Shown here: positions 16,381 to 54,104 of the stretch, in pieces
How positions within the stretch are numbered: the first letter of the stretch is position 1
Layout: every line of letters starts with the position of its first letter
Origin: Forficula auricularia
Lineage: Eukaryota > Arthropoda > Insecta > Dermaptera > Forficulidae
Reading direction: 5' to 3'
Length of the DNA stretch: 64,000 nucleotides
NCBI GenBank assembly: GCA_024734495.1
Contig: JALMQS010000887.1
Span: forward strand, 1,825,228-1,889,227
Made by a program: the position numbers and the translations under genes
The notes under the pieces: model-generated
What the model saw: only the letters and a program-made list of their open reading frames with translations
What the model was told of the DNA's origin: nothing
Database searches by the model: none

Positions 16381-16675
16381 GTACTTGAGACGTTGCGCAT
16401 ATCGAGTGAGAGCACACCAAGATTTATGTACCATTTTATAATTCATATAATTTTGTATATTATGATAAAATCCACAACAACTCTGCCTGCGGACAATTTG
16501 TTTATAAAATTAATTGTGTCGCTAATACTCTCTTAGGAACTGATGATGGCATTATTTAATTAAAGCCGAAACGTTTTCCATAATTGGGAGTTTTTTATTC
16601 AGCGAGGCTACCCATTGGCTGAATCCCTCTCCATTACTTAATTATATACATATACAGCCATCAAAATTGTATCTA
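16381..16675 (+). mobile_element. Family V element fragment with well-formed ribozyme-like motif
   Basis: The whole stretch matches 41634-41937 in inverse orientation at high identity. That copy has a second inverted end, which is missing here, so this copy is incomplete or solo. The plus-strand motif at 16536-16579 has all invariant hammerhead core bases (see separate entry). Confidence 0.75.
16536..16579 (+). ncRNA. Hammerhead-like ribozyme motif (family V)
   Basis: GGAA (stem I), CTGATGA, one extra T, GGC with a 14-base loop and GCC (stem II), GAA, ACGT (self-complementary stem III), T, then TTCC, which pairs with GGAA. In hammerhead numbering the cleavage triplet would be GUU. The extra base before stem II is not standard. 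Stem III as ACGT can only form between two molecules or two copies, so activity would need dimerisation. Confidence 0.5.
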
Positions 16676-17323
16676 AATTAAGAATTTTTTAACAAAGGTA
16701 TTCAGAAAACTAGGTTTATTATAACTATATAACGAATTTTGTATTAGTGAATAACCCATCATCCAAATTACTCCGTTATATCGAGGTTTTATAGTGTAGT
16801 ATAATTTTGATTATAATGCTATTGCCTTTTTTGGGGGTGTCTTACACTTTATACTAAGTTTTCTCGAAAATGTTTAAAATTTGAATATTTTTTTTTCTAG
16901 AAATTAAGGAATAAAATATTTTAATAAACATTCTACTTAAAACGGGAAAGAATTATTTCCTAACATTCTGAATACAATTTGAGTTTTGAGTTAGAATTAT
17001 TTCGTGTTAAAACCCGACTTTCAAGCAGCTAAGCCCGTTTCTCAATTAACATTTTACCATATTATTATAATTTTTTGTGAGATCGTCAAAGCTGTCTCGT
17101 ATAGAACCCCATGTTTTTTCTAGCCAGCAAATCTTATTGTCTCAAGTAACCCAGAATAGCCGTGTTGAACGGCTGAATTGTTTTGACTACTCAAGCATAA
17201 TAAACTTATGCGTTAACATTTTAGAGCTAAAATTAGATGCATAGTTTGAAAAGTTTAATAGCAAAATCATTAAATACTCTACCCGAAATTCTGGGAAAAT
17301 AAAATAAATAGATTATTCAACCA

Positions 17324-17580
17324 AGGGTTTGATGTCATGGTGCGGGAACACCATTCCCGCACTGGTTTTGAGAGTTTTTTATTTTTGTATTTTTTATTTC
17401 ATCTATTTATTTTAGAGGTTAAAATTTTTTTTTGAAAAACACAGAAAAAAATTGAAAACTCCTAAAATCCATAATTTGCAACATATAATTCCAAAATTTT
17501 CCGGGGAGGACCCCACGGAACCGCCAGGTCATCCGAGATTTCAGTGTTCCCGCAGCGCTAAATTTGCGATGACACCACTT
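17324..17580. mobile_element. Mutator-like MITE with 10-bp target duplication
   Basis: TATTCAACCA occurs immediately outside both ends (17314-17323 and 17581-17590). Inside, the left end has TGATGTCATGG then TGCGGGAACACC, and the inverted right end has TGGTGTCATCG then TGCGGGAACAC. A 9-10 bp duplication is typical of Mutator-like elements. The GC-rich part 17500-17575 belongs to the element and explains the short open frame seen there. Confidence 0.6.
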
Positions 17581-18024
17581 TATTCAACCACATCCTTTTA
17601 TTCTTGCTTTTTTCTAAAATCAAATTTAGACAAATTAATCTAACGTTAGTATTTTGCAATCCGAAAAGTAGTAAATTTTATCAATATCTAAAAATATTAT
17701 AAATATCGTCTTTTCACTTTTCTATAGTTAAGGAAATGATGGGTAAAAACTTTAACAAATATTGGAAACTTCGAAAAATAAATTTTGGAAAGAACTCGTT
17801 CATTTATTCTTTAGAAGTGAATGTAGAAAACACAATTCTAACAATATTTCTCACTTTAAATCTGACTCTAGGTCCTCTAGGCCACAGGAACCAAATGATA
17901 ATATTTGCCAGGTTCTGTCACTACTGACAATATTATACACGCTTTAAAAGTAAATCCGTTCCGTTTCTAGCCAAGATAGAGTTGAAACTCTCCTTACTTC
18001 CTTTGTACTTTGTCAATAAATTTC

Positions 18025-18038
18025 AATGCGATACGGAT
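18025..18038 (+). repeat. Left target-site duplication of Jockey-like insertion
   Basis: AATGCGATACGGAT is repeated exactly at 18559-18572, directly after a poly-A run. A 14-bp exact duplication fits target-primed reverse transcription by a non-LTR element. Confidence 0.9.
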
Positions 18039-18558
18039 TAAAAGAAAGTTATACTGGATGATAGGACGGAGATCCAAACAACAAAATTATTGTGTATAGA
18101 CAAATCATAAGACCAGTCTGGATCTATGGTATACAGCTCTGGGGCTGTAGCAAAGAATCAATATCAGGATGATTCAAACTTTTCAAAACAATACTCTGCG
18201 AGATATCGTCGATGCCCGCTGGTACATCAGGAACGGAGACATCAGGAAGGATCTCCACATTACTACTGTACAAAGGAAATAACTAAAGCAGCCAGGAATC
18301 ATAAATTGCGACTGGAAAATCACTATAATCCAGAAACTGTTCGAATACTCAGCACCGTCGGACAGCTGAGAAGATTGAAGAGGCCAACTGACTTGTCCCA
18401 ATGAGAAACTTTAAAGTGATCCCAGTGAATTGCGGATAATGTTAGACATTTGCAATGTCATCAATGAGATGGCATGCTTCCTGAATGTTATATACTTTAT
18501 TATAGTAAAATCATAAAACGGTCATCTGACTGGATTGATAAAGTAAAAAAAAAAAAAG
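18039..18558 (+). pseudogene. 5'-truncated Jockey-clade non-LTR retrotransposon (RT C-terminal part)
   Basis: Conceptual translation gives the typical Jockey reverse transcriptase C-terminus in pieces: VYRQIIRPVWIYGIQLWGC, then RDIVDARWYIRNGDIRKDLH and EITKAARNHKLRLENH, ending near GQLRRLKRP before a stop around 18404. Stops and at least two frameshifts interrupt it, so it is non-functional. A 3' UTR of about 140 bp and a poly-A run (18546-18558) follow. The exact 14-bp target duplications define both ends and show the copy was truncated on arrival; only the last part of ORF2 was inserted. An open frame on the opposite strand is a shadow. Confidence 0.9.
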
Positions 18559-18740
18559 AATGCGATACGGATATATGCAACACGACTGGATTGGAAAGGA
18601 TGTAAAAATGACAACAGCACACAGTGTCATATGAGGGTCACCCACTTCAGAAAAAGCTGCGACACATGTTGCTTAACTTTGGAGATCCTTTGGAAAATGT
18701 TTTTTTTTTCTAATATGTCAAGGCATTTGAAAATCCAAAT

Positions 18741-18924: not shown

Positions 18925-18939
18925 AATCTAAATATTAGA

Positions 18940-19840: not shown

Positions 19841-19907
19841 TGTAATTAATAAAGTAAAGGGTGTGCAGTTTCACAGTGAATGAAATAAAACTCAAAGAGG
19901 TTTATAC

Positions 19908-19940
19908 AAACTCAATCTATTTCAGATTATTAGTCCATCA
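19908..19940 (-). ncRNA. Hammerhead-like motif, left-arm copy
   Basis: Reads AAACTC, CTGATGA, T, GGA...TCT, GAA, ATAGAT, T, GAGTTT on the minus strand. Core bases and stem I (AAACTC/GAGTTT) are intact. The stem III bases ATAGAT are no longer self-complementary, unlike the right-arm copy. Confidence 0.45.
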
Positions 19941-19975
19941 TCAGGAGTTTACAGGTTAAAACAGTTTTAACCTGT

Positions 19976-20018
19976 AAACTCCTGATGATGGACTAATAAT
20001 CTGAAATATATTGAGTTT
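19976..20018 (+). ncRNA. Hammerhead-like motif, right-arm copy
   Basis: AAACTC (19976-19981), CTGATGA (19982-19988), one T, GGA...TCT stem II with one G-U pair, GAA, ATATAT (20006-20011), T, GAGTTT (20013-20018). AAACTC and GAGTTT pair perfectly over 6 bp. Compared with the ACGT copies, stem III has changed sequence but stayed self-complementary. Confidence 0.5.
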
Positions 20019-20788
20019 GTATAAACCTTTTGAGTTTTATTTCATTCACTGTGAAACTACACACCCTTTACTTTATTATTTAATATCATGTTTCACCTAA
20101 AACCTACACCTCTTTCTCTAGTTAAGTAGTTTGGCGACTGAACATTCTTGAAAAATAACAACCCCAAAAACTAAACTTTGGACAGAGATTTTTTAAAGAT
20201 AGGAGAAATTAGCAAATATCACTTATGTTTTTTCTGTTATCATTTAGATTTTTTTATTAAAAGAACCAAATTTGTCGAAAAATTGAATTTTTGCTTATTT
20301 ATGTTAAGAATGATTTGAAATGAAGAAAAAAATTATTTTCATTCATGATATTTTTATGTTCATCTAATTCTTACAATATCTTAAAAATGATAGGTCAAAG
20401 AAATTTCATCCTGGTTGCAAAACATTAGTATTTTCGAAAGAAAAAATATGAACACATAATGGGCCTTCTAGCTTCGAAATATTTTAAACAATAACTTTGT
20501 CATATAAGAAGCTGTTGAGGCTGGAATTTTAACACATGTTCAGGTTGATAAACTTTACTTATCTGCTCAGTTCAACTTGTTTAGATAAAATGTTCGCTTA
20601 AAAATAAAATTGCCAAATCTCTGAAATGTGGCAAATGAGCATCAAATGTTAAAGAAGTTTTAATCTTTTACTCAGATTTACATTTTAAAAATAGAGTATA
20701 GATACCAGTAATTTATCTCTAATAAACACATCATATAATTTTATTTTTATTTGATTTTTTGAAAATATGAAATTAAGTTAAAGCTGAG

Positions 20789-21103
20789 GATTTAATAGAA
20801 TGCTATCTAGGAATAAATAAAAAGAATATTTCCAATAAAGAGGATTTATTGGAATGATTTTCTCTTTACAAGCTTTTGAAACCAACGTTTCGAAAAATCT
20901 TCCCTTTTGAGGGTTCAAATGGTAAATGAAGGAAGCATGTAATATTTCTATTTTTTGTACGCTTCCTTCATTGACTCATTGAACCATGAAAAGGAGGAAG
21001 ATCTTCGAAACGTTGGTTTCAAAAGCTCTAAAAAAATCTTCCAATAAATCCTCTTTTATTGGAAATATTATTTTATTTATTCCTAGATTACATTCTATTA
21101 AAT
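20789..21103. mobile_element. Fold-back element with two decayed ribozyme-like motifs
   Basis: Arms share TTTAATAGAATG, AGGAATAAAT, TTTATTGGAA and AGCTTTTGAAACCAACGTTT. The cores are mutated: minus strand about 20878-20925 reads CTCAAAA in place of CTGAAGA, and plus strand about 20976-21020 reads ATGAAAA. Both keep GAA-ACGT-T-GGTT. A 67-codon open frame on the plus strand is just the right arm. Confidence 0.65.
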
Positions 21104-21420
21104 CATCTGTTATAAATCAACTAGTCTGTCTTCGAAGAAACTCTTCTAATATATTAAATTATACTAGTAGTATATTAACTAAAATTTAAAAATTCTATTT
21201 GATTCCTTTAAGGTTGCTGGGACAGTACCCCGCAAATCACAATAAAATCTAAATATTTTTTGACTAAAATTAATAATTTTAACACATAAATTAAATATTT
21301 TAATTTAGATTTTATAGCTAACATCATTTTTAATCGGATACATGAAATAATTTAGTTAATAAATATAATAAATAAATGTTTTTTGACTCGAGTATTTTAA
21401 ATGAATCTGGCAACAGCATC

Positions 21421-22519: not shown

Positions 22520-25500
22520 TATATACCTTCGAATAAGTACCTGAATAAAATATATCATATAAAATCCAATTGAGAAAGCTGTATTTTTGCTTTTGTTTTT
22601 ATTTATTTCCAAATTTAAAAATAAAAGTCGAAAACTATAAGAAACGATTCAATCAAGAGCTTACAAGATGCTTGAAATTGGATTCTTATTTTTAATGGAA
22701 GAAAAATACTCTTCAAATAAAAGTATATTAAATTTCTCTATAAGTTATGGAAATATATTATCTAATATAGATGATTTAAGCCGAAACTTTTGGTAAACAA
22801 CTCAACTACCAAAGCATCAAATCTAGAATTAACTATTAAAAGCTTGGTAATTAAATTGTTTATTAAAAATGTAAAGATGTGAAGATAATTATGCAATATT
22901 AAATGTATTTTATTAATAAATAGCAAATTTAAAAAAAAACATCACGTGTCGATCGATGGACAACCAAGTAATCAAAAAGCTATATATAGTTCATTGTATA
23001 TCTTTGTTATTTATTAATAAATATATTTAACCTATCTGAAACTCGCCGAAAGTACTTATAATAAATATTAATAGTAAAGTGACATTTTTGGTTTAATAAT
23101 GTATTAAAATTAAATTGAAAGTTTCTTTTTGCCGAGAGTAGCAGAATTTTTATAAATTGAAAGAGACAATAAAGAGTGTGTCTTCTGCTGAAATTAAAAA
23201 TGTATCATTCCAGCAGAAGACATGCTCTTTTGTTGTCTCCTTCAATGTATTAAAAATTAATAAGCCGTCCAAGTGCGAGTTGGGCTTTCATACATTATAA
23301 TTTCGAAATACTTAAAATATCAAATTTATCGAATTTGTCGATGGTTGATAAGAAGTATATGAATGAATTTGTGAAATTTTTCATAATTTTAAGTTATGCC
23401 GTTTGCAAACATCATCAGGAACAAAAATCAACTAATAACAGTCAAATTAGAGCTCTCCCACAACGTCATTTTAAATAGATATAAATTTTATAAAATTAAG
23501 CCTAATTGTGCTTAAAGAGATATCTCACATCCCATCATAAAAAATATTTTTTACTTGACCATACAGGGTATTGTAATTGTGAATGAAAAAAGTTTTTTTT
23601 TGTTTCGTTTTTTCAAAATATCTCAAAAACGGATGAAACTATTTTGAATAAAAAAAATTGAGCAAAGTCATGGCGTTTTGGTCTACAAAAAAGCCGTAAG
23701 AGAGAAATTATATTTTTTGAGCTATTAATTGTTTTATAAAAATATCTGTTAGCTAATTAGTACGTTCGTTGGCAAATTCTGTCTACGCTCTAGCTAAAAA
23801 TCTAGTGTGAATATCAAAACGAAATTTTACATTTAGTTTTGTAATTTTTTTCAAATAAAAATCGAAGAAGCTGATATTTCTAATCAAATGGCCTCATAAT
23901 TAAAAGAAGATATTATTAATGGACCAATAATTAAAAAAAAGGGGGGGGGGTTCTTTCGTAAATAATTATTAATTGTTTTATTAAGTATCTAAATATAAGA
24001 AACGGGTCAGGTTTATGGTAGTCGCGTGGAAGGCAACATCAGCTTATTTTAAATTAAGTTTAGTAAAAAAAAATTATTTTTTCACTTTCTAATTAGGAAA
24101 ATATAGATACATATAATCTCTCAAAAGCTCTCAGAAAATATGAACAAAAAGTTTTCGAAAATTGTTGAGATAATAGGGAATTTAAAAATTACTCTATCCT
24201 CCCTGACAAAAATGTAGCGCCGCCTGGTAGACTAGATTATGCATTCAAATGGTACATTCTGATTAGAGGGTTGCGTCCTCAGGCGCTGAAATTAAAACCT
24301 TACTTTTGGACATTTTTTTTAAACTTAAACAATGTTTTTATTTTAACTGTATACCGTTTCGTATAAATAATTACTTAATATCTTCAAGAAAATTAGTTTT
24401 ATGTACACAGTTTTTTGATATTGTTTAATCGCAGTAATTTTTATGACAATTGTGAAATAAGTAGTAAAAAGAACTTATTCCTCGAGAATAGGGAGAAATA
24501 TTTATTTTTATAGTAGTAGATTTTTTTAACAAAATTTCCAAATTTATAATTTTTACAATTATTTGGACATCGAGCAACACTCCCTTCTCATAAAATAGTA
24601 GATAAAATCAATAAAACAAGTATGATTAATTAATTTGAAATTTGAAAAAGATGGTGTTTTTTGAAATTTCAGCATCACTACTAATCAGAGGAATTCTCTT
24701 TGATGTAAACTTTACAATATAACGACATATTTTTAATGAAGAATTTTAAAATTGATGAAATAACATCAAGATAGTTTGTTAATAAATTTTAATTTCACAA
24801 CAGAAGGCCTCATTTCCTCTGGAGTTTAATTCAATTGTTGTTATTCAAATATAAACAGACATGTACTGAATGGTCACTTCAGTCACCAAAAGAATTATAG
24901 TCGGATATATTATAACTCTAGAGAAGTTTTCTATCTGTACATATACTTATATTTCAGAAGGATTTCAGCCCTTCTGACATGAAATTCAATCATACCAAAC
25001 ATATACTTTGATTTACTACGTCATGGCCTTTTAAATTATTTTTTAAAAATTAGATATAATATCTTAATTATTTCATTGGTTTATTCACAAATAATTGTTA
25101 GTAATAAGATCGATATAGGACTTATGTTGACCACAATAAATGTTTCAATATTCAGTTTTCAATTTAGTTCAATCAATCAATCGTTACATTAGAAAGTGGT
25201 CTATAAATAAACAGATTTATTTTTAACCACACAAGATGATTGAATAGGCATTCTAATGAAAATTCAATGATATTTGTTTGTACTTTACCTTTAAATAACT
25301 GGCCTTTGAGTTTACCAAGAGATCATTTGAAAAGAAAAGAAAAATAATTTTAGAGAAATTATTGTTGCAAAAATTGACAATCATAAAAAATTAGCAACAA
25401 ACAGACGAGTCGTAACAATTAAGTGTTGGCAGGCACCAAATGAGAATACTTTATAAGTACAAATAATTAAGTATTTTACCATACGTCAATATTTAGTTTT
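22520..25500. other. Unassigned AT-rich DNA
   Basis: Apart from the hairpin at 23135-23243 no gene or paired element is visible. A G11 run follows an A run at about 23930-23951. GC-richer 24200-24290 (TAGCGCCGCCTGGTAGACTA) has no match in the window. Confidence 0.4.
23135..23243. repeat. Hairpin related to family IV fold-back arms
   Basis: CCGAGAGTAGCAGAATTTT is followed by inverted copies of GAGACAA, AAAGAG and GTCTTCTGCTG. The order of blocks matches the family IV arm, so this may be a short deletion derivative. Confidence 0.45.
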
Positions 25501-28734: not shown

Positions 28735-29693
28735 TGCAATGGTCCTGTGGATTGAACCATAATTTATTTTTAATTAATCAATTAAATTCTTATTTTTATT
28801 CATCATTAAGTCTAATTGAGGCAATCAATTTATCATCAAACAAGGGAAACTTATAAATTCTGGGAAAGCATAGTAAATGACCAACGATTAACAAATATAG
28901 AAGAGCATTGACTTGAGCAAGTTCGACAGTCATTGACTGACATGTCATGAGAGAGAGTGTGCATATCTACTGCTATCGAAGTGACTCTGAATAAACCTAC
29001 ACAAATACTGTTATATTCAAGTTCCACAGTTTTTGACACGAGTGCAGAGAGAGAGTGAGCACATAAACTGCTAATTCTCTATATATACAAGTTCCTTCTT
29101 CATCGAGCACCTAGGTTGCACAAGGCGGTTACTTCATTTTATTTGATATACGTTCTTCTTGAGGAAAAGGTACTGGCGTACGAAGCGCACACCGCTAATA
29201 TATATACAATTATATACATTGAGCACCAGAGAAGCACACCTTCGGATACGGTCCTCAAACCTGATATATATATATATATATTACATTCACCAGCCGTTCT
29301 TCCCCATCGGGACATCTACAAGCAAAATAACACGCCTCTCCACTGCAACTGGGAAACTACAAAGGAAACACTTCTCTATCTCGCCTTTCTTATTTATAAC
29401 GATACAAAAAATAAATATCTCAGTCTCTCTATTAATTGCTGGTCTGTATAACTTTATTTATAGTATTAGTACCAGGAAGCCCATTTCCCTACATCCTTCA
29501 CGCATCACCTCAAATTTCATTCTCCATTTCAGGGACGTGCCACTTGGATCAGTCACTGAGGGACACACCCGCCCCATCAACAAATAGCGAAGCAGATTAA
29601 TTTAACAATAACGTAACAATAAAGCCCAATTTCCCTAGTACATAAGTTACATTCACCCCCCCTTGCCCCCTAATAACCCCCCACCCCCTCGTG
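28735..29693 (+). repeat. 5' LTR of a non-autonomous LTR retrotransposon
   Basis: The LTR starts TGCAATGGTCCTGTGG and ends CCCCTCGTG; the usual TG...CA ending is not kept at the right. It matches the 3' LTR (32462-33415) almost base for base: the only differences I saw are one A in an A-run and several C/T bases in C-runs near the end. CTATATATACAAG near 29080 could be the TATA box and AATAAA at 29618-29623 the polyadenylation signal. A small frame inside (MHKAVTSF...) is repeated in both LTRs and is not a gene. Confidence 0.9.
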
Positions 29694-29800
29694 TGGTGTT
29701 CGTAAGCTGGGATCCCCTCGTACATAAGTTACATTCACCCCCTTGCCCCTTAATAACCCCCCACCCCCTCGTGTGGTGTTCGTAAGCTGGGATTGGATAG
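29694..29800 (+). promoter_or_regulatory. Primer-binding-site candidate, tandemly duplicated with the LTR end
   Basis: TGGTGTTCGTAAGCTGGGAT follows the LTR directly. TGG is the complement of a tRNA CCA end, as expected for a primer-binding site. The last part of the LTR plus this site is present twice in tandem (period about 83 bp). The primer tRNA was not identified. Confidence 0.5.
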
Positions 29801-30118
29801 GCCGCAAAAGAAGCCGGTATTCTACTGATCCAGGTGAAAAGTCCTTATTCATCTTCAAAAAATCATTTCATCTCACAATTTCCTGGTACAATAATCCTGA
29901 AAATATTTGAAAGTAGCTACAATTGCCCAGAGCTTAACAGGTTCCTTTGTTTAAAAAAAAAATTTTTTATACAAAAAAATTCTTTTATATTTGCCTGAAT
30001 TGAAAATAAGTAAATACACCAGAGGCCATTGACATTTCCACCTACTAATTATAAATTTAACTTCAAATATTTATTTATTTATTTGCCTCTTGTTTTTTTC
30101 TTTCGAAATTAATTGTCG

Positions 30119-31093
30119 ATGTCGGACGTGCGGGGGACGTTTTCTATGCTTTCTGGACCGACGGCGGGCACCGGGGACGCGTCCTCGAGACCAATTCACT
30201 CCAGTCAATCAGGACATAATGATCACAATATGATTCATTTTCCCACAGCCGAAGTCGGAGCCGCATTGGACAGAGCGCCAGGTAAAGAAAAGCCACCCCC
30301 AACCCCTTCCACACCCTCTAGTGCTAAACCCACCATCCCCAATAATAAGGATACGAATGCAATGTTGGTTCAGATAATGACTGCGATGGAAAATATGAAT
30401 ATAAATTTGAATAGTAAATTTGAAAGTTTGAATAGCGATATGAATAGTGGATTCGATAAGTTAACTAGCAATTTTAAAAATATGAATCGTACATTTGAAA
30501 GGGGATTCGATAATTTCATTAGCAAACTCGATAGCATGAATAGCGGAGTTGAAGTAAAAAATAACAAGCTCGATGTGACAGATAGTCGATTTAATGATCC
30601 TCCCAGAAAGAATGAAGATGTAGTAACTGCCCTCCCAACCATTCAAACCCCTCCATTAAAATTTCAATTTGCAACAACGGTATCCACAGCCGAATTCACC
30701 GAAACCACACAAGAACTCAATTCAGACCCCTTTAAGAATGTTAATATTAGTTTCATCATAGAGCCCACCACCGAATTAAAGTCAGTAACCTATCTACCCG
30801 GCATAGAGATAAATGAACCAATTAATAAGCCACAAATTATTGAAATTAAGTCCCCATCGCCCTTAGTTAAAATCGATACAAATCCCCTAATCGAAATCAT
30901 CCCCACTGTTAAAATTTCACTTGGTTTGAATACATATTATAAAGAGTACTTCAAAACATTTTTAAGCTCAGAATTAATAAAAATAAAATCATTAATAATA
31001 TTTATTAGCCACATATTTCAAAATAAAATGCACCCCGGAACAGTGGCGCTGGAACAAATCGTTCGTAACGCCGCGCGAAATCATACACGCTAA
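30119..31093 (+). CDS. Gag-like or novel protein of the non-autonomous LTR element
   Basis: A 324-codon frame starts at the first ATG (30119) and is the only long frame between the LTRs. Residues 1-80 are rich in Ser, Pro, Thr and Gly. Residues about 85-165 form a likely coiled coil of repeating blocks (NSKFESLNSDMNSGFDKL, NMNRTFERGFDNFISKLDS). Residues about 165-285 are Pro/Thr/Ile-rich with acidic and IEI-type repeats. The tail is basic (ALEQIVRNAARNHTR). I see no CCHC zinc knuckle, protease motif, reverse transcriptase or integrase, so I cannot assign it to a known Gag family; a self-assembling structural role is inference from position and coiled coil. The frame is intact, in line with the near-identical LTRs. 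The G/C-rich 5' end differs from the AT-rich remainder. Confidence 0.6.
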   Translation: MSDVRGTFSMLSGPTAGTGDASSRPIHSSQSGHNDHNMIHFPTAEVGAALDRAPGKEKPPPTPSTPSSAKPTIPNNKDTNAMLVQIMTAMENMNINLNSKFESLNSDMNSGFDKLTSNFKNMNRTFERGFDNFISKLDSMNSGVEVKNNKLDVTDSRFNDPPRKNEDVVTALPTIQTPPLKFQFATTVSTAEFTETTQELNSDPFKNVNISFIIEPTTELKSVTYLPGIEINEPINKPQIIEIKSPSPLVKIDTNPLIEIIPTVKISLGLNTYYKEYFKTFLSSELIKIKSLIIFISHIFQNKMHPGTVALEQIVRNAARNHTR

Positions 31094-35789: not shown

Positions 35790-36172
35790 TGGTGTTGGTG
35801 CAAGGTGAAACATCTTTAATAAAGATAAGAGTAAATAAATATTATATGTAATATTCATTTACTATGAGTTAAGGATTCATGGTCACTTTGTTTCACAGTA
35901 AAATTTAAAAAATTAAAAGAAGTAAAAATTGTTTTCAATATATATATTTCGGGCTATCAACCCATCTTCAGGAAGTACAGAAAATAACAGTTATTTTATG
36001 TACTTCCTGAAAATGGGTTGATAGCCCGAAATATATATATTGAAAACAATTTTTACTTCTTTAATTTTTTAAATTTTAATGTGAAACAAGTGACCATGAA
36101 TCCTTAACTCATAGTAAATGAATATTACATATAATATTTATTTACTCTTATCTTCATATAATACCTCAAAGT
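35790..36172. mobile_element. Family I fold-back with two ribozyme-like motifs
   Basis: It begins at GTGGTGTTGGTGCAAGGTGA (the family end). Inverted arms include AAGATAAGAGTAAATAAATA, GAGTTAAGGATTCATGGTCA and AAAAATTGTTTTCAATATAT. Minus motif about 35930-35978: CTGAAGA, T, GGG...CCC, GAA, then AT repeats. Plus motif about 36001-36050: CTGAAAA (one core change), same remainder. Stem III is a 10-base ATATATATAT palindrome. Confidence 0.8.
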
Positions 36173-37004: not shown

Positions 37005-37160
37005 GTGTCGATTCAAAGTGAAACATTTTTAAATAATAAAAGTAAGTAAAACTGCAAGGTAGGTTTCACAAAAATAAAACAAATACATATAGTTGAGTTT
37101 TATCTCGATAAATATATTTCGGGTTACGAGCCCATCATCAAGAGTTCAGAAGAAAATATT
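37005..37160 (-). mobile_element. Left half of a family I fold-back split by nested retroelements
   Basis: TAGGTGTCGATTCAAAGTGA, AAAGTAAGTAAAACTGCAAG and AGGTTTCACAAAAATAAAAC are the inverse of 40610-40695. The minus motif about 37104-37148 reads TTGATGA (C3 changed), T, GGG...CCC, GAA, ATATAT. The partner arm lies 3.4 kb away, beyond two non-LTR elements and another fold-back. Confidence 0.7.
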
Positions 37161-38157: not shown

Positions 38158-38158
38158 C

Positions 38159-39463
38159 AATAAAAACTATCGACCCATAGCAATCACTTCTGTCTTATCC
38201 AAAATTATGGAAAAGGCCATCAACGAGCAAGTTCTACGACAGTTAGAGTCAAATAAATTTATCCACGATAGGCAATACGGCTTCAGGCAATCCCGGTCGA
38301 CAGGTGACATCCTAGCATATGTAACTCATATCTGGAACAAAACCTTGGAGGCCGGGAATGAGACCCTCGCGGTAGCTTTAGACATTTCAAAAGTCTTCGA
38401 TATGGTCTGGCACAAAAATCTTCTTGCCAAATTGACCTCCGTCGGCCTTGCACCGAAACTCTGTAAGTTGCTCGAAAGTTTTCTTTCAGACCGTAGTATT
38501 AAGGTTGTCATCGATGGAATATCATCTTCCCCCTTCCACACCAACGCGGGAGTTCCTCAGGGATCGGTTATCTCCCCTACGCTTTTTCTTATCTATATCA
38601 ACGACCTTCTAAACTTGCCCTCCAATCCGGTACATTGTTACGCAGATGACAGCACCCTACATAACGCCCCTGCATCGCATAAAAACCGTGCAGACATTGC
38701 CTCTTCAATTAATTTAGACTTATGCAAACTTAAAAACTGGGGATCCCAAAACTTAGTTAACTTCAATGCAGGGAAAACTCAGTGTTGCCTTATTTCTAGG
38801 CGCGTCGACAGAAACCTCCCAAATATATCATTCGACTCAAACTCACTAGAATTCAGGGATAAAATTTCAATGCTAGGCGTAACTCTAGGGTCTGACCTTT
38901 CATGGAATGACCATATCTCAACCACAGCTAAAGCTGCAGCGCGCAAGCTTGGTCTCCTATTTAGGTCTAGACGCTGTTATACTCCCAGTCAACTCCTTAT
39001 GCTGTATAAGGCTCAAATTCGTCCCTGTCTCGAATATGGCTCTCATCTGTGGAGGGGTGCCTCCAAGCATTCTCTTGCCACACTGGATGCAATTCAGAAG
39101 CGAGCAATTAAACTAATAGGAGAACCGGCTCTAACCAACTCACTCGACTCCCTGGCTCACCGAAGAACCGTTTCTGCCCTTTCCCTGTACTACAGATACT
39201 ATCACGGTGTCTGTTCAGTCGAGCTGAAATCAATTATCCCCCCTAATGCCCTCTTTACGCGAAACACGCGGTTTTCTAACGCTCAGCACCCCTTCGCTGT
39301 CAAATTGGATAAAATTCGAACAAGCGCTTTCGCCAACTCTTTTATCCCTTTGACCTCCAGAGACTGGAACTCGCTCCCTGCCACCATCTTTCCCGCGACC
39401 TATAACCTTCAGCTATTTAAGACCCGTATCCACAGATACCTTCGACCCCCGCCCAACCCATAA
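38159..39463 (+). CDS. Non-LTR retrotransposon B reverse transcriptase, 5'-truncated
   Basis: Open for 434 codons from the truncation point (NYRPIAITSVLSKIMEKAIN); the first ATG is at 38207. RT motifs in order (residues counted from the ATG): YGFRQSRSTGD (about 24-34), ALDISKVFDMVWH with the first catalytic aspartates (about 57-69), AGVPQGSVISPTLFLIYIND (about 113-132), YADDS catalytic centre (about 144-148), LGVTLGSDLSWNDHI (about 224-238), then the C-terminal WNSLPATIF and FKTRIHRYLRPPPNP. All palm residues are kept, but the N-terminal endonuclease, ORF1 and 5' UTR are missing, so it cannot move alone. It is G/C-richer than its surroundings. It belongs to the Jockey/CR1 group; the exact clade is not resolved. 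The same 3' end occurs twice more at 62.3 and 62.7 kb. Confidence 0.9.
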   Translation, partial: NKNYRPIAITSVLSKIMEKAINEQVLRQLESNKFIHDRQYGFRQSRSTGDILAYVTHIWNKTLEAGNETLAVALDISKVFDMVWHKNLLAKLTSVGLAPKLCKLLESFLSDRSIKVVIDGISSSPFHTNAGVPQGSVISPTLFLIYINDLLNLPSNPVHCYADDSTLHNAPASHKNRADIASSINLDLCKLKNWGSQNLVNFNAGKTQCCLISRRVDRNLPNISFDSNSLEFRDKISMLGVTLGSDLSWNDHISTTAKAAARKLGLLFRSRRCYTPSQLLMLYKAQIRPCLEYGSHLWRGASKHSLATLDAIQKRAIKLIGEPALTNSLDSLAHRRTVSALSLYYRYYHGVCSVELKSIIPPNALFTRNTRFSNAQHPFAVKLDKIRTSAFANSFIPLTSRDWNSLPATIFPATYNLQLFKTRIHRYLRPPPNP

Positions 39464-39949: not shown

Positions 39950-40535
39950 AAAATTACAAACAGAAACAAAGAGGTTGTCCTCTGCTTGATGCAAATAAAC
40001 ATACACATATATATATCAAAATTATATATCTGTATATATATTATTTATTTGTTTGAGACTATAATTTCGAAGACTTGGCCTTCATCATCAGTCTTTTTTA
40101 ATTATAAATATTATTTTTCATGGGGTTAATACCGTATGGATATTGAAAATTTTCGATCTTTACTTAGCTGGAGCTAGTTAAAATTAAAATCAACTTCCAG
40201 TTCACATTCATATTTAACCATATGTATCCCTGTTAAATATGAATGTGAACTGGAAGTTGATTTTAATTTTAACTAGCTCCCAGCTAAGTAAAGATCGAAA
40301 ATTTTCAATATCCCTAAGGTATTGACCCCATGAAAAATAATATTTATAATTAAAAAAGACTGATGATGAAGACCAAGTCTTTGAAACTAAAGTCTCAAAC
40401 AAATAAATAATATATATATACAGATATATAATTTCTATATATATATATGTATGTATGTTTATTTGCATCAAGCAGAGGACAACCTCTTTGTTTCTCTTTG
40501 TGAATCAACAACTCTGCTACACTCGGCAAATTAAG
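39950..40535. mobile_element. Family IV fold-back, complete, with ribozyme-like motifs
   Basis: Arms of about 260 bp (centre near 40225) start at AGAAACAAAGAGGTTGTCCT and end with the inverse plus ACTCTGCTACACTCGGCAA. They share TTCCAGTTCACATTCATATT. Each arm carries a motif with CTGATGA, T, GAAG...CTTC or CTTT, GAA (minus about 40067-40105, plus about 40358-40402). Stem III and I pairing are weak, so these look inactive. Frames on both strands are shadows of the palindrome. Confidence 0.8.
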
Positions 40536-40695: not shown

Positions 40696-41654
40696 AATAC
40701 AATTCATTATAAAACGATTCAAAAAAGTTTAACAAAAATTCAAATCTCCTTTTTATCAATTTATTGAAAATTTGTGAAATATGAAAAATAGTTGTTTCAA
40801 GGAAGAATAATAAAGTAACTATTGATATAAACCAATAAATATTTTGAAAATAGCCAATACTACAGATTGTCTTGGTGTGTTTCGCATTATTAACTAAATC
40901 TGCATACAGTGTACATAGTCTTGAAAAAATTTCTCTCTTTTCTGCAAATTCCCTTTCAGAATGCTTGTTAGATGATTTATCATCTTATTTTTAAATATTT
41001 TTTTTAAGTAAATAACCTATATTAAACTCTATTTTATTAAAGAAAAAACTATTCACGCATCCATTATTCTGAGACCTCATGCTTCGGCTTATAGAAAATT
41101 CAAATCCAATTGAAAGAGTAAATATCTTTATCGTTTTTGTTCACGCAAAGCAAAGTGTAAACACGTGCACAAGCTTCAGTTGGAGATTAAATATTTACAG
41201 GGGGTTTCAAAGTGTTTTTTCTTATTATTTGGGGGTCAGAGGGCTAAAAGGTTAAGAATCGATGTTATAGATCAGGCCTGGCCAACCCACGGGCCGCATT
41301 GACTACCTAAAAATTTCAAAAGGCCGCAGAAAAATAAGATAATTTTTATTTTATTTAATATTTTTTTCTAGAGCTGGCTTTAAAACGGATTTCATATTTA
41401 GTGATTTTTATTGTAAGCGAACGCAAAAGTACACTGAAAGTGTTAAATCAATGTAAATGTGAAAAAAAAAATTCCAAGGAGATTCGGAAAGAAAACATGC
41501 ATTGAATGACCCAACAAAAAATGAACGTATTTGTATGGTAATAACCATTTAATTAAAAATAGTTTTAACTATCAAAATTATTTTTTTTATTTTTTTTTAT
41601 ATTTTAGTAATATTCAAAAACATAAGGTTTTAATGTTGATACAATTTTGATGGC

Positions 41655-42013
41655 TGTATATGTATATAATTAAGTAATGGAGAGGGATTCAGCCAATGGG
41701 TAGCCTCTGCTGAATAAAAAACTCCCAATTATGGAAAACGTTTCGGCTTTAATTAAATAATGCCATCATCAGTTCCTAAGAGAGTATTAGCGACACAATT
41801 AATTTTATAAATAAATTGTCCGCAGGCAGAGTTGTTGTGGATTTTATCATAATATACAAAATTATATGAATTATAAAATGGTACATAAATCTTGGTGTGC
41901 TCTCACTCGATATGCGCAACGTCTCAAGTACAAACGTTTTCCATAATTGGGAGTTTTTTATTCAGCAGAGGCTACCCATTGGCTGAATCCCTCTCCATTA
42001 CTTAATTATATAA
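41655..42013. mobile_element. Family V fold-back with ribozyme-like motif, two-ended copy
   Basis: Inverted ends of about 78 bp: TAATTAAGTAATGGAGAGGG, CAGCCAATGGGTAGCC and TCCCAATTATGGAAAACG (41659-41740) mirror 41936-42013. The spacer holds the minus-strand motif 41733-41776, the same as at 16536-16579: GGAA, CTGATGA, T, GGC...GCC, GAA, ACGT, T, TTCC. The right arm repeats ACGTTTTCC without the rest of the motif. Confidence 0.85.
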
Positions 42014-42346
42014 GGTTTTAATATTTAACGCCTAAAGATGGAACCCGCAATACAGAGCGCTCGATTTAAATACATAACCTAGAACACGCAGGCGAAGCTC
42101 TATCTTTCTAATCACTCCATCCCTCCCTATTTTTGGACACTATTAATTTCACAACGTGAGCCATTTTCATAAGGTAAATAGTTTTAATTATCAAAATTAT
42201 TAGTCAAGTTACATACGCCGAACATTATTTCGCGTCTTATTTTAAAATACCAAATAAATATCAATGGCTATTTCTTTCAGTGTATATTTTTGGATTTCAT
42301 TTCGTCTATTTTTAAATCAATTTCTCTTGTTTAAGTTTATTATTAT

Positions 42347-42642
42347 TAGATTAAAAATTCACAGTTCTTTGGACAATGTTTTTTTATTGAAGCTCTTATC
42401 CAATTTTTGTACAACGTTTATATCTGTGATCTGTCAAATCCATCCAGACTTATTTTATTGTATCAATCTAGAAAGAAAAATTCTACTATGTCTCAATTGT
42501 TTTTATCTTTATTTCAACCAATGTTGCTCTAACCAATTGAGTGCTTGAAAAAGTCTCGAGAGAGAGACGAAACGTTGTACAAAAATTGAATAAGAGCTTA
42601 AATAAAAAAACATTGTCCAAAGAACTGTTAATTTTTAATCTA
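42347..42642. mobile_element. Fold-back with degenerate ribozyme-like motif
   Basis: Arms share GATTAAAAATT, CTTTGGACAATGTTTTTTTA and CCAATTTTTGTACAACGTTT. The plus motif about 42540-42585: GTGC, TTGAAAA, A, GTCTC...GAGAC (5-bp stem II), GAA, ACGT, T, GTAC. Stem II and stem III are perfect and stem I pairs with one G-U, but two core bases are changed. Confidence 0.65.
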
Positions 42643-42884
42643 CTAATTATAATGGACATTAATCAACATAATTTATTATAAATATTATTTTTTATTTTAT
42701 TTTTTGTGCAATTATAGGGAACGCTATTTCTTTTAATTAATTTAATGGATTTAAAATACTTTGTGAAATACCCAATTAAAAAAAAACAATTTGTATGTCA
42801 TATATGACTGCGGGTCACACGTAAGGACGCCGAGGGCCGCATGCGGCCCGCAGGTTGGCCAGTCTTGTCTGGTATAGACTAGTG

Positions 42885-43640: not shown

Positions 43641-43651
43641 TATAACTGATA

Positions 43652-43838
43652 GAAGGGCAGCCCAAGGATAATGAAAAAATTCTATCGAATAAAATAGATT
43701 TATTGGATATTCATTTTTTCTCACTAAAAAACCAACGTTTCGGAGGATTCTTTCTCCTTCTTCAGGGCGAAAAAAATGAATATCCAATAAATCTATTTTA
43801 TTCGAGAGAATTTTTTTCACTATCATTGGGCTGCCTTT
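43652..43838. mobile_element. Family II fold-back (GGCAGCCCA ends) with ribozyme-like motif
   Basis: Arms AGGGCAGCCCAAGGATAATG... and the inverse ending CATTGGGCTGCCTTT share TAGATTTATTGGATATTCAT. The loop holds a minus motif (43730-43769): CTGAAGA, A, GGAG...CTCC, GAA, ACGT, T, GGT. Core bases are all present; stem I is short (3 bp with one G-U). Confidence 0.75.
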
Positions 43839-43839
43839 C

Positions 43840-44975
43840 TCTTAAAGTAGAATTGTTGATTTTTCTTTAAAATGACGCTACGAGAAAGGAGCAAATTGAG
43901 CATATGATTTTTACCTGTAGGCGTTTAAAATAGGCTTAACTTAATAACGAAAAATTAGTACGTTTTTGATATCTTAAGTATTTATCAAGTTATAAGATAA
44001 AAGACTCTCCATCACTTATCAATTAAAATTTATATCTGTCCGTCTCTCTCCGAAGAGAAAATTTCATCTAATATATATTAATTATTTTTGGAAAACCGCC
44101 ACAAATAAAAAAAAGTTTGCCAGCTCCAATATAAAAAAATTAATCATTTCTTAATTTCAATATAGAATAAATAAATATTAATTTTTGTTTGGATATTATT
44201 ATTGTTTTTTGTGGTAGAGCAAATACAAATTTGGCTACATACATACATACATACAAACATGTGAAATAGATTTTTTTTTAATAAGTCGGCCAAGTGCGAG
44301 TTAGTCCGCATACCGAGTCTCGTATCTTATAACTTGAAAATACTTAAGATATCAAATTCCTACTTATTTTTCGTCAATAACTTAAGCCTATTTTAAACGC
44401 CTACAGGTATAAAAATCATAAGGTCAATTTGCTGCTTTCTCGTAGCGTCATTTTAAAAACAAATTCAACAATTCTACTTTAAGAGATGATCTTTCGATAG
44501 CTCATGCCCTATGATAAAAAATATTTATATTTTCGACCCCTGAAAAAAAATTCGACCTTCTCCAAAATAATTATTTAATTAAAATTTTAATACAATTTTT
44601 AAATTCCTGGAAAATAACTAAAAGTAACTTATAAGGTTTGTGTGTTATTTAGCTTACCTGACAGACGGACAAACATTATAGCGACCGTATGAGATCTGTT
44701 TTATTTTTGAAAAAAACAACTAAAATTTACTTTTTTGGGATCTGGGGATCTTGAAATCTAAAGATCTGTAAAAGCTTAAAAAATCTCTCATAATTACAAT
44801 ACTACCCCAATGATTTTATTAAAAATTTAATTAATTAATTAATATTTCTCCATATATATAAGTAATTACACATACACCAGCTGCGAAGGCCGCATCCAGC
44901 AGGCATCTTGCTGGCTAGGGTGCTACGGCCTCTGAACTCTGCAATGGGTTTTAAAATGATAATTTTAATAAAAAT
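43840..44975. other. Unassigned AT-rich DNA
   Basis: TCCGTCTCTCTCCGAAGAGA near 44040 is the inverse of a motif at 52460-52480 and 53540-53560, a dispersed repeat end. An ATAC microsatellite lies at 44238-44256. A GC-rich hairpin (CCAGCAGG...TTGCTGG, 44895-44915) was not identified. Confidence 0.4.
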
Positions 44976-49983: not shown

Positions 49984-50388
49984 AAAATACTAGAAAATCA
50001 TAGATCAAAGATGGTGTCATCTATTAAATCCGATGGAGTGGAATATTTTTATTTATATGTCAGAATTTCTTCAAAATTCGAAACACTCAACCACCTTTAT
50101 TTAAATTATATGGCATGGCTATATGTTTAAATTTAGAATCACTATATCGCGAAATTTTACAAATTAAGATAACAATCTTTGAGTAAAATATTTTACGCGT
50201 TTGCATATGTCAGAGAGGTTCGTATCCCGCAGGTGAACCAGGTGGCCCGGATTGCTGTTACTGGCACTCGGGTTCGATTCCCGAGGGGGTGAAAAACAAC
50301 CCCTCTGACATATAATTAAAAATATTCCACTCCACCGGAATTAATAGATGACACCATCTTTGATCTATGATTTTCTAGTAAATTTGAA
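49984..50388. mobile_element. tRNA-like fold-back (family III), copy 1
   Basis: Arms share TAGAAAATCATAGATCAAAG, GATGGTGTCATCTATTAA and GTGGAATATTTTTA. Just inside the right arm is a GTCAGAGAGG...CCTCTGACATAT hairpin (50207-50313) enclosing a perfect tRNA T-arm: TCGGG, loop TTCGATT, CCCGA (about 50269-50285). The arms are not shared with the other copies at 55.4 and 60.2 kb; only the tRNA-like part is. Confidence 0.7.
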
Positions 50389-50468
50389 TCTATTACCATC
50401 GGCAAATTAATATCTTTCATAAGAAAAATACTATAAAATGAACCTATAATAACGAAAATATTTTTTTT

Positions 50469-50790: not shown

Positions 50791-50799
50791 TAAAATCAC

Positions 50800-51785: not shown

Positions 51786-51789
51786 AGTG

Positions 51790-52305
51790 CATTTTTTGTT
51801 TAGGTTTTTAACTTCAAATTCAGACTTTTCCATATCAAATTTAGGATTTTAAAAATCAATTGCGGACTTTTCCATATCAAATTCAGGACTTTAAATTTCA
51901 AAATCAGACTTTTTCAAATCAAATTCAGAATTTCTATAAAACAATGCATATTTTACATATTAAATTATAGCTTTTTACCTGAAAACGTTTCCTGAGAGTA
52001 CAAAATGCTAATCTTGAAAGATTTTAGTTAATGAACTAAAAATTGGTACGCAAAAATCTTACAATGGACCAAATTTTAGCTTTTCACCTGAAAACTTTTC
52101 CTGAGAGTTAAATTAAATTAAAATTTTTTCTTAACTATAAATTTTTTCTATTTTTTCAATTGTTTATTAATACATTCTGAATTTGATTTGAAAAAGTCTG
52201 ATTTTGATTTTTAAAATCCTGAATTTGATATGGAAAAGTCCGCATTTGATTTTTAAAATCCTGAATTTGATATGTGGAAGTCTGAATTTGAAGTTAAAAA
52301 CCTAT
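51790..52305. repeat. Palindrome with internally repeated arms
   Basis: Left arm 51795-51935 contains the motif AAATTCAGACTTTTCCATATC two to three times in tandem; the right arm 52165-52305 has the inverse set. CACCTGAAAACTTTTCCTGAGA-like pieces occur twice in the spacer. Non-coding. Confidence 0.65.
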
Positions 52306-52615: not shown

Positions 52616-52754
52616 GCTGTGCCTACGGGTGGTTCAGGTGGTACATGGTGCAAAACACCACGGCGCTCAAGCTTAAGGGGGAGGACTTGTAAAGTTCCGG
52701 CCAGAAAATTAAATTTAGTTTTAAGCTCAAGAATTTCAAGAAAATATTATTTAA

Positions 52755-53042
52755 ATTAAGTGGATATTGATGAGGCAGTCCAAAAAAAGAAGAAGATAAT
52801 TTACACCATCTTTTTATTCATAATTACATTATAATTCTGCTGAGAATGAAATACAAGATATTATTGTTACTGCCACTGAAAGAGGAGACAGAGGGGAATG
52901 CCGCATTGGATTTCCTTCACTGACTTTTCAAAACCCTGAAGAAGGAGGGAATAGCCTCCGAAACGTCGGTTTTATGAATAAAAAGATAGTGTAAATTATC
53001 TTCTTCTTTTTTGGACTGCCTCATCAATATCCACTTAATTCA
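52755..53042. mobile_element. Family II fold-back (GGCAGTCCA ends) with the best ribozyme-like motif
   Basis: Arms TTAAGTGGATATTGATGAGG, CAGTCCAAAAAAAGAAGAAG and TAATTTACACCATCTTTTTA mirror 52968-53042. The spacer between them holds one complete motif on the plus strand (52930-52973). GGCAGTCCA parallels the GGCAGCCCA of the elements at 43652 and 53593. Confidence 0.85.
52930..52973 (+). ncRNA. Hammerhead-like ribozyme motif, best copy
   Basis: AAAACC (52930-52935), CTGAAGA (52936-52942), extra A, GGAGG (52944-52948), 6-base loop, CCTCC (52955-52959), GAA, ACGT (52963-52966), C (52967), GGTTTT (52968-52973). Stem I is 6 perfect pairs, stem II 5 perfect pairs, and the cleavage triplet would be GUC, the preferred one. 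All invariant core positions (C3 U4 G5 A6 G8 A9 G12 A13 A14 A15.1 U16.1) are present. Odd points: one extra base between A9 and stem II, and a 2-bp stem III without a loop, which needs two RNA copies. Confidence 0.6.
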
Positions 53043-53124
53043 CTTATCAGTCCGTCTCCAAAAATTACTCCAATCTTATTATTTAAATTTATTTTCGATA
53101 AAATATTAATATAAGACAGACCTA

Positions 53125-53215
53125 TTAGCCGGGCACAGACGTAGAGGATTTTCAAAGGATCTAGCCTGCCGGCCGGATACGCCGTCCGGGCCCGCCAAGC
53201 AAGCCTCCCACATAA
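53125..53215 (-). repeat. Dispersed GC-rich repeat, copy 1
   Basis: On the minus strand AAAATCCTCTACGTCTGTGC and CCGGCTAAT match 54400-54426 (AAAATCCTCTACGTGTGTGC). The upstream part (GGCGGGCCCGGACGGC) is GC-rich. Likely the end of an unidentified retroelement. Confidence 0.45.
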
Positions 53216-53356
53216 CAAATATGCTAATGCACACTAACGTAAAGATTTGACTTTTCCCATTCCTGGCGTGCCTGATGCGTAGAGCGCAAGTTATTTTAGT
53301 TAATGGCGAAATTTTTCACATTTTGAAGGGACCGATGGGCAGGCCGGCCTATTATA

Positions 53357-53418
53357 GCCATATGAAATCCTGGTGAGTGGCCTAAGACCTCTCACTAGGA
53401 TTTCATATTCTTCAAGAT
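53357..53418. repeat. Short hairpin
   Basis: ATGAAATCCTGGTGAG and CTCACTAGGATTTCAT are inverted with 15 of 16 matching and an 11-base loop. Function unknown. Confidence 0.5.
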
Positions 53419-53575
53419 GTCATAACAATATATCTTTAAATAAAAAATAAGTGAGTATATTTTTTTCTTTAGATTTTATGCGATTTCTAATTTAACGAAG
53501 ATTATTTTTGAAAAATAAAAAATAATTTTTTTGGAACAAAATTTTCTCTGGAGAGAGACGGACTGGTAGAAATTT

Positions 53576-54104
53576 TAATTGAATGTAATGGTAGGCAGCC
53601 CAGATGTAGTGATAAAAGAAAAAATTAACACATATAAAATAAGGTGTAATTTATTGGAATCCTTCCTCCTTTCCTTTCAAACCGACGTTTCGGAGATTTT
53701 TCCCTCCTTCTTCAGGGTTTCAAAGGGTCAATGAATGAAACAAATAAAATGTTTCCTTCTTCTCTCCACAGTAGTGTTCAAAAACTTTCTTCATTTTTAA
53801 CAAAGGCATAGAAAAATCGATTTTCTTTGTTAATTAAGAAAAGGAGGAAAAAAATTTGTTTTTCTATGCCTTTGTTAAAAATGAAGAAAGTTTTTGAACA
53901 CTACTGTGGGGAGAAGAAGGAAACATTTTATTTGTTTCATTCATTGACCCTTTGAAACCATGAAGAAGAAGGGAAAAATCCTCCGAAACGTCGGTTTGAA
54001 AGGAAAGGAGGAAGGATTCCAATAAATTACACCTTATTTTACATGTGTTAATTTTTTCTTTCCTCACTACCTCTGGGCTGCCTTCCATTACATTCAATAA
54101 AAAA
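53576..54104. mobile_element. Family II fold-back (GGCAGCCCA ends) with inverted pair of ribozyme-like motifs
   Basis: Arms of about 240 bp contain TTGAATGTAATGG, AGGCAGCCCAGATGTAGTGA, AATAAGGTGTAATTTATTGG and TTCAAAAACTTTCTTCATTT. Minus motif 53679-53720 keeps all core bases (CTGAAGA, A, GGAG...CTCC, GAA, ACGT, C, GGTTT with AAACC). Plus motif 53954-53996 has A for C3 and a damaged stem II. The centre near 53840 is AT-rich. A 113-codon minus-strand frame is an arm shadow. Confidence 0.85.
53679..53720 (-). ncRNA. Hammerhead-like motif, second-best family II copy
   Basis: AAACC, CTGAAGA, A, GGAG...CTCC, GAA, ACGT, C, GGTTT. Stem I 5 bp, stem II 4 bp plus a G-U pair, GUC triplet. The inverted copy 275 bp away would pair with it in a full-length transcript and hide it. 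Confidence 0.5.

Follow-up and report, generated by a model that had tools for sequence, protein, structure and literature searches.

Dispersed minimal type I hammerhead motifs with little or no helix III, some of them in the pseudo-long terminal repeats (pLTRs) of Penelope-like elements (PLEs), are described in passages of two published sources and may cleave as dimers (PMC7761336, PMC6155905). In a section of one review, the role of PLE hammerheads is termed a mystery (PMC7761336). Here, such motifs are described from Forficula auricularia (Insecta, Dermaptera), in a stretch of 64,000 nucleotides (the window; contig JALMQS010000887.1, positions 1,825,228 to 1,889,227) within an assembly of 1.06 Gb (GCA_024734495.1). 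Judged from their sequence, they are very probably variants of the minimal type I hammerhead that precede the 3' insertion end of PLEs by about 50-113 nt. The window would then hold many severely 5'-truncated PLE ends, made into foldbacks by two-sided insertion.

Several described systems share parts of this arrangement. In the PAc PLE of Anolis carolinensis, both strands of an AT-rich target are nicked and extended, and reverse transcription starts internally at two sites, the interval between them being a tail of 30-40 nt (PMC11167929). The PAc hammerhead cuts only with protein and is dispensable for insertion in vitro, according to the same study's account of the ribozyme (PMC11167929). Rotifer PLEs are described with head-to-head inverted pLTRs, target-site duplications (TSDs) of 8-10 bp and, optionally, a 31-bp tail attached to one of the inverted pLTRs (PMC3846280). 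In a viroid hammerhead, a nucleotide added to the catalytic core weakens cleavage and yet is linked to infectivity; the passage concerned does not state the position of that nucleotide (PMC11014351).

Hammerhead motifs in the window and the genome

Six motifs in the window satisfy a strict descriptor that demands the CUGANGA core, GAA, at least 4 bp in stem I, at least 3 bp in stem II, and a stem III bounded by A and U and followed by H; 200 order-2 Markov sequences contain 0.03 such motifs on average and never more than 1. With a looser score, 10 sites reach at least 15 against 0.25 expected (20 simulations). Taken alone, the core CTGANGA shows only a modest excess, with 30 matches where 17.6 are expected, and 1 of 100 shuffles reached 30. 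The covariance model was built from genomic copies with ACGU in stem III. It finds 17 matches in the window at E <=5, nine of them at E <=0.005, and the AUAUAU motifs at 19905 and 19973 score poorly (E 1) because the model is an ACGU model. The CUGANGA, GAA and NUH core and stems I and II of the hammerhead ribozyme are all present.

A preliminary description of the window had named four copies with differing stems around a fixed core, at 16536, 19976, 52930 and 53679, and had added eleven decayed places for a total of about twenty. Overall, its observation is confirmed and its count is fair. The four copies are present with the stems it gave, the one at 19976 being the motif that begins at 19973. 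They represent three families rather than four, as the 52930 and 53679 copies are related (85% over 62 bp). Remnants are visible by eye at all eleven decayed places, several of which also have a covariance-model or looser-score match. The motif at 43729 is hardly decayed (E=4.7e-9); E is 3e-4 at 42540, 1e-3 at 14389 and 5e-3 at 20981, and weaker at 40059 (0.056), 20879 (0.061) and 55291 (0.87). The places near 8990 and 35950 score 15.5 each in the looser scoring. Those near 2780, 37125 and 56840 are read by eye only, as half or mutated motifs of the AUAUAU family.

All six strict motifs contain one extra nucleotide between CUGANGA and stem II, a feature that the preliminary description did not mention; stem II follows CUGANGA directly, as in the canonical core, in 0 of the 6. 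In the genome, the pattern CTGANGANGGN{5,16}CCGAAACGT, which includes the extra base, has 26,758 matches (13,466 + 13,292; reversed control 0). A disjoint pattern, CTGANGAWGHN{6,18}DCGAAACGT, has 19,636 (9,882 + 9,754; reversed control 1), and together the two give 46,394 strict core matches. When the extra base is removed from the second pattern, 85 matches remain (37 + 48; 2 control matches), several of which are recognisable families with one base lost. Since these comparable patterns give 19,636 and 85 matches, the extra base is about 230 times commoner than its absence.

The fetched set comprises the leading 30 matches of the first two scans and 40 stretches around further listed places; as it was drawn from the first contigs listed, it is not a random sample of the genome. 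The extra base is A or U in 137 of the 138 fetched motifs, one of the two patterns having demanded W. At the fetched loci, which were chosen with extra-base patterns, and in the window (335,548 bases together), 64 motifs have one extra base and none has canonical spacing, and the four motifs with two extra bases are all register shifts in G runs. One extra A or U between CUGANGA and stem II is, on this comparison of sequences, a variant feature of these families. At one locus (L058; G000:C4:1021900-1024000), five motif copies stand in direct tandem at a spacing of 111-125 bp, one of them with twelve consecutive G in stem II.

Viral contigs were scanned for relatives in other species. The long pattern has 0 matches there. 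Among the matches listed for looser patterns (103 stretches and at least 120 stretches), both stems reach at least 3 bp in 0 of 103 variant and 1 of 128 canonical motifs. At the loci of the Forficula genome, the corresponding count is 96 of 138 motifs, both sets having been gathered partly with patterns that forced the first stem II pair. The viral matches look like chance and serve as a negative control because they are practically without stems.

The 137 motifs compared fall into 16 clusters at 72% identity. A single recent family without independent stem changes, the outcome that by the preliminary description would refute its claim, is excluded. About two of the clusters (L030 and L008) seem to belong to larger ones after rearrangement or divergence, so that the number of independent families is slightly below 16. 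When each cluster is represented by one motif, bases pair in 48 of the 64 cells of stem I and in 58 of the 64 cells of stem II. When the 3' strands are re-dealt whole among the clusters, these values are 25.6±3.9 and 36.9±3.4, and the observed values are reached in 0 of 2000 trials each. Across the 16 clusters, pair 2 of stem I is CG in 6, GC in 4, UA in 3, AU in 1 and GU in 1; pair 2 of stem II is GC in 9, UA in 3, AU in 3 and CG in 1.

In 31 aligned ACGU sequences, the covariation score is 0.755 against 0.202±0.031 for shuffled sequences (0 of 500), and 81.0% of cells are paired against 50.5%. The shuffles overstate significance because the sequences are related; controls with slid partners keep this relatedness and agree, with scores of 0.05-0.19 (at most 0.192). 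Two of five covariation measures do not separate from the shuffles. Pairs changed in both partners number 8, with 7.9 in the shuffles, and further pair types number 30, with 26.5 in the shuffles, 41 of 500 of which reach the observed value. Outer stem I is weaker, with pair 4 paired in 8 of 16 clusters and each of the two outermost pairs in 17 of 31 sequences. As the core, ACGU and the first pair of stem II were fixed by the gathering patterns (one of which fixed both first pairs), the unconditioned evidence consists of stem I and the inner pairs of stem II.

Compensatory change around a fixed core is supported by both the cluster pairing and the 31-sequence alignment. The preliminary claim that three stems covary stands for stems I and II, whereas stem III is a short palindrome and not an ordinary covarying helix. 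Stems that change together between families indicate an RNA shape kept by selection, and the sequences support selection on the RNA structure of the motif. Among 88 motifs in which stem III was not forced to one sequence, it is ACGU in 72, AUAUAU in 5, AAGU in 1 and AUAGAU in 1, and 9 have ACGU plus a longer register; most of these loci were fetched with an ACGU pattern. Stem III thus appears usually to be a short palindrome, ACGU or (AU)n. Such a stem hardly forms a hairpin by itself, if at all, and fits the pairing of two motifs that is published for related PLE motifs; it also fits dimer or protein-assisted action. Dimer folding was not used as evidence, as the nested-structure program cannot represent a hammerhead dimer.

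Inverted insertions and the probable Penelope-like carrier

Nearly all motifs in the window sit in foldback elements, which the preliminary description did not mention. Wherever both arms of a window foldback hold a motif, the motifs read outward in self-comparison. In the larger set, 99 of the 137 motifs are surrounded by an inverted repeat and belong to 72 distinct elements, of which 40 are gapless and 32 are gapped. These elements have the inverted, head-to-head pLTRs with 5' truncation that are typical of PLEs, and the inner junction is variable. The outer (3') end of the arm is nearly constant within a family, at about +49 to +73 or +82 to +113 nt from the predicted cleavage site.

In 13 of the 32 gapped rows (four of them from L058), one arm stops within the hammerhead, between 33 and 18 nt ahead of the predicted cleavage site. 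Such ends occur at L011, L012, L021, L024, L045, L050, L058, L063, L067 and L074, as if cDNA synthesis or joining favoured that stretch.

TSDs were counted in 65 of the 72 elements, 7 having been dropped for a short flank or out-of-range ends. A TSD score of at least 10 is reached by 29 of the 65, compared with 89 of 4000 mismatched flank pairs, and these duplications are 10-17 bp long. A tail, a stretch of 22-42 nt between the arm and the duplication, is present on exactly one side in 28 of the 29 clear-TSD elements (17 left, 11 right), compared with 39 of the 89 null pairs. The duplications of these 28 elements are 90% A+T. Tails carry common, family-specific motifs such as CAGTCCGTCTC or ACAGCCA. 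A short TSD with a one-sided tail is also characteristic of PLEs, and the one-sidedness is a simple quantitative rule that any mechanism must explain. From the position of the tails, we infer that the two starts differ between the sides in 28 of 29 elements.

No carrier of the motifs had been named in the preliminary description; they are assigned here to PLEs. At locus L102 of the same genome, the minus strand contains a 510-residue open reading frame (ORF) with RVT_1 (3e-13) and GIY-YIG (3e-5) domains, both above the Pfam cut-offs, which is the combination of reverse transcriptase (RT) and endonuclease (EN) found in PLEs. An overlapping upstream frame has no RT or GIY-YIG domain, and the two frames together can be aligned with P0126, a homologue of 814 residues, over its residues 100-307 and 318-807. 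A hammerhead match at 236-280 (minus strand, E 6e-4) lies about 150 nt past the ORF on the same strand, so that in this one copy a hammerhead is present in the pLTR or 3' end. The sequence past this motif has an inverted counterpart upstream of the protein-like part (57 bp, 96.5%) and is also 87-90% like a palindrome of the window (23145-23258).

Further pieces of PLE protein are found near a fetched motif at L094 (54% to P0121), which neighbours L102, and at the motif-bearing loci L041 and L100. Among 120 relatives listed, those with a species name are insect RT-domain proteins (Euphydryas, Parnassius, Maniola, Bicyclus, Coccinella and Bemisia). A frame at L097 resembles a GIY-YIG end by eye; it has no Pfam match and no PLE-protein match and was not counted. 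The L102 motif and two window motifs (40059-40096 and 40355-40399) form a subfamily with an eight-base stem III, ACUAUAGU or decayed forms of it, in place of ACGU.

Features of the window

The motifs and elements of the window are listed in the table. The family A elements at 16536 and 41733 are 98.7% identical over 305 bp. An inverted arm is present in the 41733 element and absent from the 16536 element, and short direct repeats seem to flank both (by eye at 16536). The element at 19843-20082 has a candidate TSD, TCTAGTTA(A/T)GTA, with a score of 8, below the counting threshold of 10, and a tail on the right side only.

Table. Hammerhead motifs and associated elements in the 64-kb window.
Feature	Position	Strand	Basis
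Hammerhead motif, family A: stem I GGAA/UUCC, stem II GGC/GCC, stem III ACGU; predicted cleavage site GUU	16536..16579	+	strict descriptor; E 1e-8
Hammerhead motif, family A, copy of the 16536 element	41733..41776	-	strict descriptor; E 1e-8
Gapped inverted repeat around family A motif, arms 81 bp, 100%	41663..42012	-	self-comparison
TSD ATTAAAACCTTAT, tail-side copy	41622..41634	-	
TSD ATTAAAACCTTAT, second copy	42010..42022	-	
Palindromic element, 96%, one motif per arm, both outward-reading	19843..20082	.	self-comparison
Hammerhead motif, family B, stem III AUAUAU	19973..20021	+	strict descriptor; ACGU model E 1
Hammerhead motif, mirror arm, family B, AUAGAU	19905..19953	-	strict descriptor; ACGU model E 1
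Gapped inverted repeat, arms 70 bp, 97%; 13-bp TSD TATTATTTAAATT; tail on right side only	52754..53040	+	
Hammerhead motif, family C: stem I AAAACC/GGUUUU, stem II GGAGG/CCUCC, stem III ACGU	52930..52973	+	strict descriptor; E 5e-10
Palindromic element, 531 bp, 91%, one motif per arm	53573..54103	.	self-comparison
Hammerhead motif, family C	53679..53720	-	strict descriptor; E 3.5e-11
Hammerhead motif, mirror arm, family C, first core base altered (AUGAAGA)	53955..53997	+	looser score; E 2.6e-7
Palindromic element, motif close to centre	43651..43840	.	self-comparison
Hammerhead motif, family C (described near 43750)	43729..43770	-	E 4.7e-9
Palindromic element, AUAUAU family, motifs in both arms (described near 8990)	8897..9191	.	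self-comparison, looser score, by eye
Hammerhead motif with weak stem I	8974..9016	-	looser score, by eye
Palindromic element, AUAUAU family (described near 35950); motifs 35935-35977 (-) and 36001-36043 (+)	35819..36157	.	self-comparison, looser score
Palindromic element, 546 bp; motifs 40059-40096 (-) and 40355-40399 (+)	39956..40501	.	E 0.056 (-), E 0.22 (+)
Palindromic element; decayed motif 42540-42581 (+)	42337..42652	.	E 2.8e-4
Palindromic element; decayed motifs 20981-21019 (+) and 20879-20916 (-)	20778..21115	.	E 0.005 (+), E 0.061 (-)
Gapped inverted repeat; decayed motif 14389-14433 (-)	14262..14551	.	E 0.0013
Palindromic element, AUAUAU family; half motif near 56840	56707..56950	.	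self-comparison; half motif by eye
Half motif, stem II to stem III, 5' core gone	55291..55316	+	E 0.87, by eye
Half motif, AUAUAU family, 5' core gone	2755..2800 (approximate)	-	by eye
Mutated AUAUAU-family motif, UUGAUGA core	37095..37145 (approximate)	-	by eye
Palindrome without motif, 87-90% like the PLE end in L102	23145..23258	.	self-comparison

Other repeats are also present. Large palindromes at 3120-3538, 51801-52304, 57626-57815 and 61516-62131 have no hammerhead match in the strict, looser or covariance-model scan. An inverted repeat at 10468-12182 (arms of 775 bp, 99.2% identical, with a 166-bp spacer), in which no hammerhead is seen, is perhaps a recent DNA transposon derivative. 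The inverted-repeat elements at 49988-50380 and 60230-60500 have loops with a tRNA-like B-box by eye, possibly short interspersed elements nested between the arms. A unit resembling long-terminal-repeat (LTR) retroelements at 28735-33422 has 966-bp direct repeats that are 99.3% identical and encloses a 326-residue ORF. A 439-residue RT ORF of the long interspersed element type at 38144-39463 has its best species-named match in Callosobruchus analis (48%). The microRNA-type Rfam matches in the window are hairpins below the cut-offs of their families.

Proposed mechanism, alternatives and described systems

In the proposed mechanism, the PLE enzyme would nick both strands of the target and prime one cDNA from each. 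The cDNAs would start at two alternative sites on the RNA, the longer start leaving the tail, and two truncated cDNAs would be joined in the middle of the element to give a palindrome with outward-reading ribozymes. Two-sided priming of this kind would produce the observed arrangement of head-to-head copies, constant outward 3' ends, variable 5' truncation at the centre and a tail at the longer start. Less surely, two motifs in a tandem-repeat PLE transcript may pair via their self-complementary stem III and cut, perhaps with the assistance of the PLE protein, and unit-length RNA may be released. Heavily truncated PLE insertions explain the small elements, for which no separate non-autonomous family is needed.

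Several results weigh against an origin of the motifs in PLE ends or against ribozyme action there. No PLE coding sequence was found in the 64-kb window, and a single RT-EN copy is tied to a same-strand motif, the stem III of which is outside all 16 clusters. No inverted repeat surrounds 38 of the 137 motifs, some of the 32 gapped pairs, with loops of 350-640 nt, may each consist of two adjacent elements, and 36 of the 65 elements have no TSD scoring at least 10. The cDNA ends do not pile up at the predicted cleavage site (3 of 32 gapped junctions are within 5 nt), and in the Anolis study no reads were seen to end at its hammerhead site (PMC11167929). No hammerhead family appears in the Rfam scan of the window, whether at gathering score or with E allowed up to 10. 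When the 16 representatives are folded as monomers, the hammerhead helices are reproduced in only some, and the extra core nucleotide may weaken the ribozyme.

Many near-perfect palindromes would also be expected if the elements were foldback DNA transposons, or miniature inverted-repeat transposable elements, that had acquired hammerhead-like sequence, the palindrome being a long terminal inverted repeat moved by a transposase. Some AT-rich outer ends do look symmetric. However, such transposons should have a fixed TSD length and symmetric termini, and here the TSDs range over 10-17 bp, the tail makes 28 of 29 elements asymmetric and the inner junctions differ copy by copy. The 16536 copy of family A lacks an inverted arm and yet has its own flanking repeat (by eye), and a transposon origin is very improbable. 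Metazoan non-LTR retrozymes, which are short non-autonomous circular-RNA elements with type I hammerheads, are a scarcely credible source. Type I hammerheads are known in short repeats of animal genomes, as a part of the literature records (PMC7229834), and the array at L058 is tandem. The sampled copies are nevertheless dispersed and mostly head-to-head, with L058 the one tandem array noticed and no tandem arrays of about 300 bp; the core, with its extra base, is not canonical type I, and an RT-EN element also has a 3' end of this kind.

It is also conceivable, but improbable, that the hammerhead-like sequence acts as DNA, its self-complementarity helping head-to-head cDNAs to anneal while cleavage is incidental or lost. 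Stems I-III are self-complementary, the extra core base could weaken cleavage, and the truncated arm ends between -33 and -18 from the predicted cleavage site, inside the motif, in 13 of the 32 gapped rows noted above. This clustering, however, stems from elements chosen for one intact motif, and junctions are also found far from the motif. The catalytic core, which DNA pairing does not need, is kept across covarying families, although its constancy is partly built in by the search patterns.

Within the PLE reading, the fixed one-base core insertion and the self-complementary stem III of this hammerhead radiation could mean that these are deliberately weak ribozymes, cutting only as dimers held by protein. 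On the sequences available this is unlikely, and it is slightly less probable because the genomic patterns demanded ACGU in stem III. If it is true, cleavage would be timed to two-sided insertion and would not take place in every transcript. The 46,394 matches in many covarying families suffice for a test of which motif parts are kept by selection. This genome also allows a test of function for the extra core base, the palindromic stem III and the resolution of two-sided target-primed insertion.

The motifs belong to a known kind, since passages of published work already record dispersed minimal type I hammerheads by the thousand in animal genomes, part of them located in PLE pLTRs (PMC7229834, PMC7761336, PMC6155905). 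Like the PLE hammerheads of Cervera & de la Pena 2014 and Lunse et al. 2017, as these are represented in part of the literature, they are dispersed minimal type I motifs, some of them in PLE pLTRs. Compared with that account, the sampled families differ in the extra A or U after CUGANGA and in a stem III that is usually a short palindrome. Whether the extra base has been described before in PLE motifs is not settled by the literature searched, which did not include the two primary papers. Core insertions were reportedly noted by Lunse et al. in 2017. The viroid hammerhead with an extra core nucleotide, which we take to be the (+) hammerhead of Chrysanthemum chlorotic mottle viroid with the nucleotide after A9, is similar in this feature, but it is a viroid ribozyme, whereas the motifs described here belong to a retroelement.

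The bdelloid Pen elements resemble the Forficula elements in their head-to-head inverted pLTRs, junction palindromes, TSDs and tail on one inverted pLTR (PMC3846280). They have a low copy number and the word ribozyme is absent from the main text of their description (PMC3846280), whereas tens of thousands of motif matches are present here. The PAc/Poseidon PLEs, as far as their description extends, are similar in having a hammerhead near the RT starts, two RT starts that explain the tail, use of both strands and AT-rich targets. Those elements are described as tandem repeats, whereas the Forficula elements are for the most part short foldbacks arranged head-to-head, and many families of them occur in a single genome.

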